Source: Tetramitus jugosus
Lineage: Eukaryota > Heterolobosea > Eutetramitea > Acrasida > Vahlkampfiidae
Assembly (NCBI GenBank): GCA_937625935.1
Contig: OW569348.1
Span: forward strand, 186,001 to 250,000
Length of the DNA: 64,000 nt
Direction of reading: 5' to 3'
This document shows positions 33,689-35,528 of the stretch, piece by piece. Below the pieces are notes generated by a model. That model was not told the DNA's origin. It did not search any database and worked only from the letters and a program-made list of their open reading frames with translations. A program made the position numbers and the translations under genes. Positions within the stretch are counted from its first letter, which is position 1, and each line of letters opens with the position of its first letter.

Positions 33689-34059
33689 GCTCCACCATCA
33701 TTATCAAGGCAACTTCAATTGGGTGCGACCACCACCTTCATGCTCAATGTTATGACACCTTTAGATATTTCCAACCTGAAAACATTTTAATCGTAAATTA
33801 AAATTAGAACAACCTCTGAGCACAAACAAAAAATTTGACCAAAATATCAATCCATCAACATCCACTACGATTTGAAACCACAAACACAAAAAACGACCCA
33901 ATCGCCAAGGGTCAGAGCAAACAAATGAAGGCTGTCACCACATGTTCAAAAGACGATGGAAGAAAACCGGTGGTGATCTGAAAAGAAGAGTGCGATGACA
34001 CCGATAAACGTGCAGTATGGCAAGCGAAGAAAAACACACCGCTGCCAAACGAGGTTAAA
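33689..34059. other. Intergenic region, nothing recognised
   Basis: About 370 bp of AT-rich sequence up to the left target-site duplication. No supported ORF or RNA; some snoRNA-like short boxes were looked at and did not hold up. Confidence 0.4.
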
Positions 34060-34075
34060 ACAATTAGTCCGAATC
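34060..34075. repeat. Left target-site duplication (16 bp)
   Basis: ACAATTAGTCCGAATC, an exact copy of 35410-35425. It directly abuts the poly(T) run and marks the 3' (poly-A) junction of the inserted element. Confidence 0.93.
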
Positions 34076-34105
34076 TTTTTTTTTTTTTTTTTTAATACAA
34101 CAAAT

Positions 34106-34172
34106 GGTGCTCACGCACCACGTTGCGGAACTTTTATTTTTCTTTTGCGTGAGAGCAGGCTTGCCTGCTCTC
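34106..34172 (-). other. 3' hairpins of the inserted element
   Basis: On the minus strand, GAGAGCAGG-CAAG-CCTGCTCTC (9-bp stem, 34151-34172) is followed by GGTGC-GTGA-GCACC (5-bp stem with a GNRA-type loop, 34106-34119), about 12 nt before the poly(A). Such 3'-end structures are recognised by reverse transcriptases of some LINE/SINE pairs; that role here is inferred. Confidence 0.65.
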
Positions 34173-34216
34173 AATTGTCTAACATGATGTGGTGCTTGCC
34201 CAGTGGAGTGGCAGGC

Positions 34217-34819
34217 CTACGCAACAGGATTCATTCTCTTCTTGGAATGTTGTTTTGATCCCTTCTTCAGGGACTCGTTGCGAGGGCCTCCACTACCATC
34301 TGGAGCACCACTGGTGAGGTCAGATGGCTCCGTAGTCCTAGCCAGTTGGTAGGACCTACGGAGAGCACCTGACTTGATACTGGCCAACCTGGCCGGGATC
34401 TTGTTAGCAGCAGTGTCACCAACGGTGACGCGTGCTGATCGTTTCTTGTGTTCGTTGAGTTGGGGACTCTGTAACTCACAGTCGGGGTTACTGAGATCCA
34501 ACTCAACTGGATCTTCTTCGGTGGTTGTGCTTCTTGCACGGTCCACCATGATTGCTCGGGCAGCAATCTCTTTCTTGACTTTCTTGAACACCTCGGAGGT
34601 GTTCAGTACTAGTTCGAGGATTGCTCTGTTACGAGCATCCTCATCAATGGTGTTGTTGGTTGGCTCTTGGGTGACCGTAGTTGGAGTGGCGGGATGGGAC
34701 TCCGGCATGATCGACTCCCAATCATCGGTCGTAGACGGAGTCGAAGGTTCGAATTCGGAGATTCGCTCCGGCGTCCTTGGAGACGGGGATGCGAGGGGAA
34801 TCCGGTTGACGGAAGCCAT
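34217..34819 (-). CDS. Second ORF of the inserted element, unknown
   Basis: From the ATG at 34819 this ORF gives 200 aa. It begins with a Pro/Ser/Thr-rich segment (IPLASPSPRTPERISEF), then has a helical centre (about residues 65-95) and a basic C-terminus rich in Ser/Lys. It overlaps the 3' end of the first ORF by ~98 nt in the +1 frame. It could be a separate protein or the continuation of the first ORF through a frameshift. I recognise no domain; there is no reverse transcriptase or endonuclease motif. Confidence 0.5.
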   Translation of the reverse strand: MASVNRIPLASPSPRTPERISEFEPSTPSTTDDWESIMPESHPATPTTVTQEPTNNTIDEDARNRAILELVLNTSEVFKKVKKEIAARAIMVDRARSTTTEEDPVELDLSNPDCELQSPQLNEHKKRSARVTVGDTAANKIPARLASIKSGALRRSYQLARTTEPSDLTSGAPDGSGGPRNESLKKGSKQHSKKRMNPVA

Positions 34820-35400
34820 ATCTTTTAACACACCTCTTGCTGACAGCCTTGACAGGATCACGTGGGCGTGGAAGGAAGCGCTTTGCTTCCACCTCCACTG
34901 GCATGGATTGAACGTTTCGAAGCAAAGCTTCGGCATACGTTTCGGACTCCATCACAACAAAGGCGGTGTCGTGCTTCTTGAGCACGTTCTTGACCTTTGT
35001 TGCGCCAAGCATGGCCTTGATGTCGTCCTCCGTCTTACCTTTTACACCGTGGAGGACGACCTTCTTGGCACAATCTACATTGTGCTTGAGTGCTGCCTTG
35101 CAGCCACTCATCTTCTTGTTGCGGTTGAAGGATTCAACAAATGGGTAGATGTTGTCATCAACAACAGTTACCCACGCAACAAACCTCTTGGGGCCCTTCT
35201 TGATGACTTGAACCCTGGTGAGCAAATCACCAAAATCCAAGCCAATCTTCTTGGCCAAGGCAGCCTTGGGAGAGTCATCACACTTTCCTGTGATGATGAC
35301 CTCCTTGCTGCTTGGTGCAGTTCCTCTTGGTGCTGTGGTCCACACAGCATAGCGTGGATTCTCATACTCACGAACAACAGGGGTGTGTTCGTTTTTTCAT
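34722..35400 (-). pseudogene. ORF1-like protein with RRM-type segment, frameshifted near start
   Basis: The frame is open from about 35388 to 34722 without an in-frame ATG at its head. An ATG at 35400, nine bases into the element, is offset by one base because of a run of six A's directly after it, so this copy looks frameshifted at its third codon (or the run is mis-sequenced). The product has a segment reading KKVVLHGVKG ... DTAFVVMES (about the middle third) that resembles the two core strands of an RRM, as found in ORF1 proteins of many LINEs. The flanking parts are basic, fitting RNA binding. Inference, not a confirmed family match. Confidence 0.5.
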
Positions 35401-35409
35401 CGGCGTTTT

Positions 35410-35425
35410 ACAATTAGTCCGAATC
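35410..35425. repeat. Right target-site duplication (16 bp)
   Basis: Exact copy of 34060-34075. It marks the 5' junction of the element, 30 bp (inner edge) to 46 bp (outer edge) upstream of the tRNA-Lys gene. Confidence 0.93.
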
Positions 35426-35455
35426 GATTTGTGCTATTTTGAGAATGGATATGTA

Positions 35456-35528
35456 GCCCGTCTAGCTCAGTCGGTAGAGCGCAAGGCTCTTAACCTTGTG
35501 GTCGAGGGTTCGAGCCCCTCGGTGGGCG
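35456..35528 (+). tRNA. tRNA-Lys (CUU)
   Basis: 73-nt intron-less tRNA. The acceptor GCCCGTC pairs with GGTGGGC (G-U allowed), discriminator G. The D-arm is AGCTCAGTCGGTAGAGC. The anticodon arm is CAAGG-CTCTTAA-CCTTG with anticodon CTT, and the T-arm is GAGGG-TTCGAGC-CCCTC. No CCA is encoded. A TTTT terminator for RNA polymerase III follows at 35534-35537. The inserted retroelement lies immediately upstream. Confidence 0.97.

Follow-up and report, generated by a model that had tools for sequence, protein, structure and literature searches.

A probable dead copy of an ORF2-less LINE upstream of a tRNA-Lys gene in Tetramitus jugosus and the placement of its relatives at tRNA and 5S genes

The stretch of DNA considered here (the window) comprises 64,000 nucleotides of the heterolobosean amoeba Tetramitus jugosus (assembly GCA_937625935.1, contig OW569348.1, positions 186,001 to 250,000 of the forward strand) and harbors, upstream of a tRNA-Lys gene, a 1.33-kb insertion whose open reading frame (ORF) and A-tail run on the minus strand, away from the tRNA gene (Table 1). 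Among named organisms, the closest relatives of a host Sec24 protein were Acrasis kona (47% identity) and Naegleria fowleri and N. lovaniensis (39%), with further sequences above or between them at 40–99%; fungi and others came next at ~35–37% and dictyostelids at ~32%, so that by this one protein the host is most likely a heterolobosean and not a dictyostelid. An initial annotation, made from the sequence alone, had described a retrotransposed element with exact 16-bp target-site duplications, an 18-nt poly(T) at one junction and contents richer in G+C than the surroundings. The duplications and the poly(T) were recovered by direct sequence comparison, and the 1-kb bin 34001-35000 had a G+C content of 50.9% with respect to 37.9–45.5% in the remaining bins. 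The same annotation placed tRNA-Lys 46 bp away; this figure is correct when counted from the edge of the element (35409), but not from the tRNA-side edge of the duplication, which lies 30 bp from the gene. The reading frame of the window copy is broken by an internal deletion of 58 bp near 34833 relative to other copies, and it also lacks 2 bp near the start of ORF1, so that its own protein is disrupted. Splicing as the origin of the 58-bp gap was ruled out by the absence of GT-AG ends.

Table 1. Features of the insertion and its target gene (positions in the window; contig coordinates, where given, in brackets)
Feature	Position	Strand	Remark
Target-site duplication, distal copy, ACAATTAGTCCGAATC	34060..34075	+	exact match to 35410-35425
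Retroposed ORF1-only LINE copy (family A)	34076..35409	-	5' end 35409 facing tRNA, 3' end 34076
A-tail, 18 T on + strand	34076..34093	-	
3'-terminal hairpin and UGUUGUAUU end	34094..34122	-	form resembles tails of ORF2-bearing LINEs in the same genome
ORF1 remnant, C-terminal part, residues 210-414 of the 414-residue protein	34220..34834 (C5:220220-220834)	-	
ORF1 remnant, N-terminal part, residues 3-195	34818..35396	-	
Target-site duplication, tRNA-proximal copy	35410..35425	+	
tRNA-Lys (CTT), target gene	35456..35528	+	ARAGORN

The insertion belongs to a multicopy family, here called family A, of long interspersed nuclear elements (LINEs) in which ORF1 is kept and ORF2 is entirely absent. 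In the assembly searched (26.35 Mb, 56 contigs), where the copy counts of family A are lower bounds, the whole element gave at least 75 matching pieces (40 of 173 candidates scored), its 3' end at least 41 matches (40 of 69 scored) and its 5' end at least 40 (40 of 68 scored), most full-length matches measuring 1.35–1.40 kb. Intact copies encode a 414-residue ORF1 protein after a leader of ~10 nt, and the full ORF is retained in 13 of the 20 copies with long loci, which sets the family apart from short interspersed nuclear elements. The initial description as a passenger lacking reverse transcriptase therefore holds with a refinement: many copies keep ORF1, and it is the window copy that is damaged. 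The 3' A-tail and the target-site duplications are marks of LINE-type retroposition; exact flanking repeats of 11–21 bp were found by an automatic search around 16 of 21 copies with both flanks examined, whereas it gave none or a false repeat at the other five (L019, L020, L024, L025, L027). A processed pseudogene of a cellular mRNA that landed near a tRNA gene by chance would show the same intron-free body, A-tail and duplications, as would any LINE-mediated retroposition. This origin has a vanishingly small probability given the copy number (40 or more similar copies), the placement of 26 of 40 ends immediately upstream of tRNA or 5S genes, an encoded protein homologous to LINE ORF1 and the lack of GT-AG ends at the 58-bp deletion. 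The question whether the element is single-copy is thus answered by at least 40 places in the genome, and a spliced mRNA as its source is ruled out by copy number and placement. Rfam analysis of seven loci containing A copies named eight genes, all of them tRNA or 5S and all outside the element.

The 40 tRNA-side ends recovered by the 5'-end search, read from loci or coordinates, comprise 25 directly at a tRNA gene, one directly at a 5S gene (L072, RF00001, 44 bits), 12 stacked on another element and two unexplained. Of the 25 tRNA calls, 14 come from ARAGORN, seven from Rfam, two from coordinates (C17:462118, C8:45581) and two were made by eye (L075, whose start is identical to the tRNA-Ser of L012, and L076, Leu-like). 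The targeted genes include tRNA-Lys, Gln, Gly, Ser, Phe, Asn, Thr, Ala, Val, Glu and Asp, and additionally, as judged by eye, Trp and Leu. If placement were random, the probability of finding 25 of 40 ends within a 25-bp same-strand window would be below 1e-80. The TRE5-like targeting that the initial annotation had drawn from a single insertion is consequently borne out by 26 of 40 ends directly at tRNA or 5S genes and 12 in stacks, and the distances of the copies to the nearest such gene are not those of random placement. Beyond the element edge of one unexplained copy (L062, C43:245483-245633) lies a B-box-like GTTCGATCCC, at which Rfam gave no match; the neighbor is possibly an unknown RNA polymerase III (Pol III) gene or a solo B box.

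All 26 direct copies have the element 5' end facing the 5' end of the gene. The last fixed base of the element lies 50–69 bases from the tRNA (median 61; 16 of the 23 direct copies entered were measurable) on a scale that includes the terminal T-run of the element (~4–5 bases) and on which the window copy stands at 50; L024, with a shortened 5' end, lies at 40 bp, outside the 25-bp window. The sense-strand nick, whose position was read from the end of the duplication, falls 27–45 bp from the tRNA: at 37–41 bp in eight direct A copies, at 30 bp in the window copy and at 27–31 bp in the measured B, C and D units. These constants bear on the proposal that insertion occurs anywhere and that, in a gene-dense genome, only the insertions beside tRNA and 5S genes survive. 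In its favor, some tails and two of the A copies do sit elsewhere, but selection alone would fix neither the orientation, nor the 27–45 bp window, nor the re-use of one site by two or three different elements, and we consider it extremely unlikely as the explanation.

At several tRNA genes, two or more elements follow one another, almost always in the same direction; the exceptions are one outer tail on the opposite strand at L019 and an inverted fragment at L027. The 12 stacked A ends (L009, L013, L015, L023, L025, L026, L027, L061, L064, L066, L071, L073) are no more than ~50 bp away from another element's tail and T-run, the call for L064 having been made by eye on a tail one base off the pattern. 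A tRNA gene stands behind the inner element in six of the seven stacked copies with long flanks, and in the remaining five the flank is too short to show whether a gene lies behind. The neighbors examined in stacks consist of a second ORF1-only family (family B) and 5'-truncated ORF2 pieces of several LINE families. At L012 the duplication of the A copy contains the 5' end of a family B element, so A arrived second and nearer the tRNA; in other stacks, position suggests the order of insertion. The ORF is intact in 10 of 14 inner copies vs 3 of 7 stacked copies, a difference that is not significant (p 0.35). Upstream of one tRNA-Pro gene, at least four elements are piled over ~10 kb (L009 and L064, C12:203700-213430), among them an autonomous LINE between two A copies.

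Within each of the loci L014, L018, L019 (where a third copy differs by one base) and L026, two elements have the same duplicated sequence, and at L015 three do, indicating that the same site was used again. Such repeated use of one duplication at these five loci is what recognition of a DNA sequence common to the flanks, rather than of Pol III factors, would predict. Nevertheless, no resemblance is apparent by eye among duplications from different genes (a search for motifs was not made), the distance to the gene is narrow and both tRNA and 5S genes serve as targets, which makes recognition of a flank sequence very unlikely. The use of both gene types favors instead a factor common to both.

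The ORF1 of family A is under purifying selection. Among the 13 intact copies, which were selected as intact, mean nonsynonymous divergence (dN) is 0.0078 and synonymous divergence (dS) 0.056 (ratio 0.14), and their private changes (54 synonymous, 46 nonsynonymous) give a pN/pS of 0.26. Between families A and B, dN is 0.50 and dS ~2.4 or saturated, with protein identities of 32–33%; A is 30% identical over 201 residues (E 1e-27) to the ORF1 of an autonomous LINE on contig C10, and shares ~25–32% identity with the autonomous ORF1s sampled in the same genome. In a tree of 10 ORF1 rows, A, B, L021, L022 (B-like) and P0002 and P0006, which come from short contigs elsewhere, form one clade (99/98) apart from four autonomous ORF1s, these being four of ~22, one of them short and two on long branches. 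The search with the A protein yielded 109 rows, of which 97, almost exclusively A or B copies, were used (12 second fragments left out); two of these 97 have a reverse transcriptase (RT) domain 1.2–3.6 kb downstream, in both cases at 3.4–3.5 kb, which is outside the 2.1–2.9 kb of ORF1–ORF2 pairs and fits a neighboring stacked element. Pfam gave no family at cut-off for ORF1, and its predicted secondary structure resembles the order of an RNA recognition motif followed by a long helix, a likeness that is not counted as evidence.

Longer relatives carrying RT, which the initial annotation had proposed to look for, do exist, and some occupy the same kind of site. A profile search of the genome with RVT_1 gave 73 matches. 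On contig C10, a tRNA-Ser gene is followed after ~43–51 bp by a divergently oriented element with a leader of ~13–21 nt (boundary set by eye), a 345-residue ORF1 and an ORF2 that probably starts at an ATG overlapping the stop codon of ORF1. Pfam analysis of this ORF2 (L038) returned RVT_1 (2.5e-27), a sub-threshold zf-RVT (1.2e-4) and a weak endonuclease match (Exo_endo_phos_2, 0.011); its best matches among solved structures are R2 proteins, and a search with the ORF2 protein gave two unnamed proteins at E<=1e-30. Five of 30 RT loci with 1.5-kb flanks contain a tRNA gene (L037, L039, L042, L050, L054), in every case on the 5' side and divergent. Additionally, 27 of 89 ORF1 match rows have a same-strand RT domain 1.2–3.6 kb downstream (89 of 118 rows entered, those left out being mostly A copies), which after merging fragments and dropping two B rows amounts to ~22 places with ORF1 and ORF2 at 2.1–2.9 kb. 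LINEs with a homologous ORF1 beside tRNA genes thus support the earlier suggestion that this amoeba possesses a LINE-like integration machinery. Folding of selected 3' ends (A, B and seven LINE tails) gave in every case a short hairpin close to the A-tail, plausibly a common signal for the reverse transcriptase.

Other RT sequences were met in the same search. Five weak RVT_1 matches cover the same profile positions (106–164): C3:2089, C9:603492 (contig 612711), C10:606104 (contig 612120), C17:2337 and C48:379851; four of them lie 2–9 kb from a contig end and perhaps represent a telomere-associated retroelement. A second RT class, matching RVT_1 positions ~60–205 only (C16:366236, C30:32495, C40:276712, C15:386571 and others), is apparently separate from the LINEs described here.

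The placement was also seen genome-wide from the tails. The tail pattern common to these families gave 293 matches in the genome and none in a reversed control. For 53 of the 84 tails listed on C1–C11, the same strand carries a tRNA box or a 5S gene within 5 kb downstream, vs 4 downstream on the opposite strand, 9 upstream on the same strand and 4 upstream on the opposite strand; random positions averaged 4.6, with no more than 13 in any of 2000 trials (approximate contig sizes). With 5S genes only, 9 of 84 tails have one downstream on the same strand, compared with 1, 3 and 2 for the remaining arrangements and 0.7 on average at random positions. As the genome-wide Rfam tRNA list covered 63 of 1593 candidates, B-box patterns were used in its place, each as the first 100 places listed: GGTTCGANYCC (375 matches vs 32 in the reversed control) and GGTTCAANYCC (159 vs 54). 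The count of tails with a gene within 5 kb rose from 36 of 84 with GGTTCGANYCC alone to 44 on adding GGTTCAANYCC and two tRNA-Tyr genes, and to 53 on adding 5S. Compared by coordinates to partial lists (53 tRNA and 47 5S genes), 4 of 36 B and 1 of 20 autonomous ORF1 starts lie within 200 bp of a listed gene; four further B starts, of five positions entered by hand, have a B-box 124–141 bp away. As regards the genes themselves, 5S rRNA genes are dispersed over many contigs (e.g., C1:57053, C1:58194, C10:501145, C11:508029; 47 of 772 candidates scored), and contigs C54 and C56 have identical tRNA coordinates, perhaps two copies of the mitochondrial genome.

From these observations, the window element is very probably a dead copy of an ORF2-less, Pol III-targeted LINE (family A) mobilised by the ORF2 of an autonomous LINE. 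The family A RNA, ending in the hairpin and A-tail, would be recognised by the ORF2 (endonuclease/reverse transcriptase) of autonomous LINEs of the same genome, and the complex would be brought to the Pol III initiation complex assembled on a tRNA or 5S gene. At the outer edge of the initiation complex, ~27–45 bp upstream of the first base of the mature tRNA, ORF2 would then nick the sense strand; reverse transcription would be primed at the nick, and a second-strand cut ~11–21 bp further out would generate the duplications. ORF1 would bind the element RNA and probably dock on TFIIIB. We infer the use of ORF2 in trans and the target-primed mechanism, and, by analogy, TFIIIB would be the docking factor and ORF1 the targeting protein.

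Several observations weigh against this reading. An autonomous parent with an A-like ORF1 was not found among the matches examined, and may have been missed in a search with the A protein (P0001) in which 101 of 358 candidates were scored. The fold model of ORF1, built from four sequences, had a mean pLDDT of 48.4, too poor to assign a function, and the hairpin-forming 3' ends were picked by hand, without a shuffle control. As for placement, two copies (L062, L074) have no recognisable adjoining Pol III gene, no such gene was seen within 3 kb of the stacked copy L023, and for 31 of 84 tails the lists contain no Pol III gene on the same strand within 5 kb (for 26 of 84, none within 7 kb). These lists do not include all genes, and a stack may be longer than 5 kb, but some of these tails may be off-target or orphaned.

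The short leaders raise another explanation, in which transcription of an element requires its insertion at a Pol III gene, so that only copies at such genes were amplified and founded the family. Leaders of ~10–30 nt before ORF1 leave little room for an upstream internal promoter, in agreement with this idea. Yet dependence on the site explains which copies breed and not where they land, and the daughters are also found at a narrow distance; as a replacement for targeting it is very improbable, while it can hold in addition to targeting. An extension of the mobilisation by ORF2 in trans can be put forward tentatively, with the balance somewhat against it: the ORF1-only families would be an old, independent lineage of protein-coding elements that parasitize LINEs and that, while carrying no reverse transcriptase, have retained and diversified an ORF1 under selection because each RNA needs its own ORF1 in cis for loading and steering to Pol III genes. 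With leaders nearly absent, only the innermost element of a stack adjoins the tRNA flank and may alone be expressed, so that each arrival would silence its predecessor and the stack would record this history.

The closest known design is that of TRE5-A in Dictyostelium discoideum. Its autonomous form has ORF1 and an ORF2 with APE, RT and zinc finger, whereas TRE5-A.2, described as a derivative of TRE5-A.1, lacks the whole ORF2 and keeps ORF1 (PMC5391098). TRE5-A inserts with a peak at 47+/-3 bp (40–54 bp overall), forms tandems at re-used genes, and its ORF1 was reported to bind TBP/TFIIIB, with dependence on the B-box (PMC5391098); 5S targets have also been reported for TRE5 (PMC5911963). TRE5-A and family A are alike in orientation, ORF2-less companion and tandems, and their distances are roughly comparable. 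They differ in that most A copies lie ~5–15 bp further out (the window copy at 46), the host is a heterolobosean instead of Dictyostelium, leaders are 10–30 nt while TRE5-A has modular untranslated regions, and the ORF1 of family A is ~25–32% identical to the sampled autonomous ORF1s of its genome, unlike TRE5-A.2 as a derivative of TRE5-A.1. Family A works like TRE5-A.2 in design and placement but is not filed as TRE5.

Among other dictyostelid elements, NLTR-A of D. purpureum and NLTR-B of Polysphondylium pallidum are non-LTR (long terminal repeat) elements found upstream of tRNA genes, the latter at 39–64 bp (PMC5006619; PMC5911963); both carry an RNase H domain after RT. The NLTR-B range covers most distances seen here. 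Pfam detected no RNase H after RT in the part of the L038 ORF2 examined (one element, L038 ending before the ORF does). The mammalian half-L1 elements (HAL1) are ORF1-only LINE relatives that use ORF2 in trans and are not known to target tRNA genes; the ORF1-only lineage described here differs in landing at Pol III genes like its presumed helper. Ty1 and Ty3 of yeast are LTR elements that use an integrase and have neither an A-tail nor a LINE-type ORF2. They follow the same safe-haven strategy upstream of Pol III genes (PMC5911963).

The non-LTR elements targeting tRNA flanks that are covered in the portion of a 2018 review used here (TRE5, TRE3, NLTR-A and NLTR-B) are all dictyostelid (PMC5911963), and the literature searched (open papers, partly as titles and starts of abstracts) contained no tRNA-targeting LINE in Heterolobosea and none outside dictyostelids. 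A similar distance, orientation, stacking and ORF2-less companion in a heterolobosean (Discoba) point either to convergence on one Pol III docking point or to an old or transferred lineage. The order of insertions is preserved in the stacks, and the ORF1-only families are a natural experiment that sets what ORF1 does apart from what ORF2 does.
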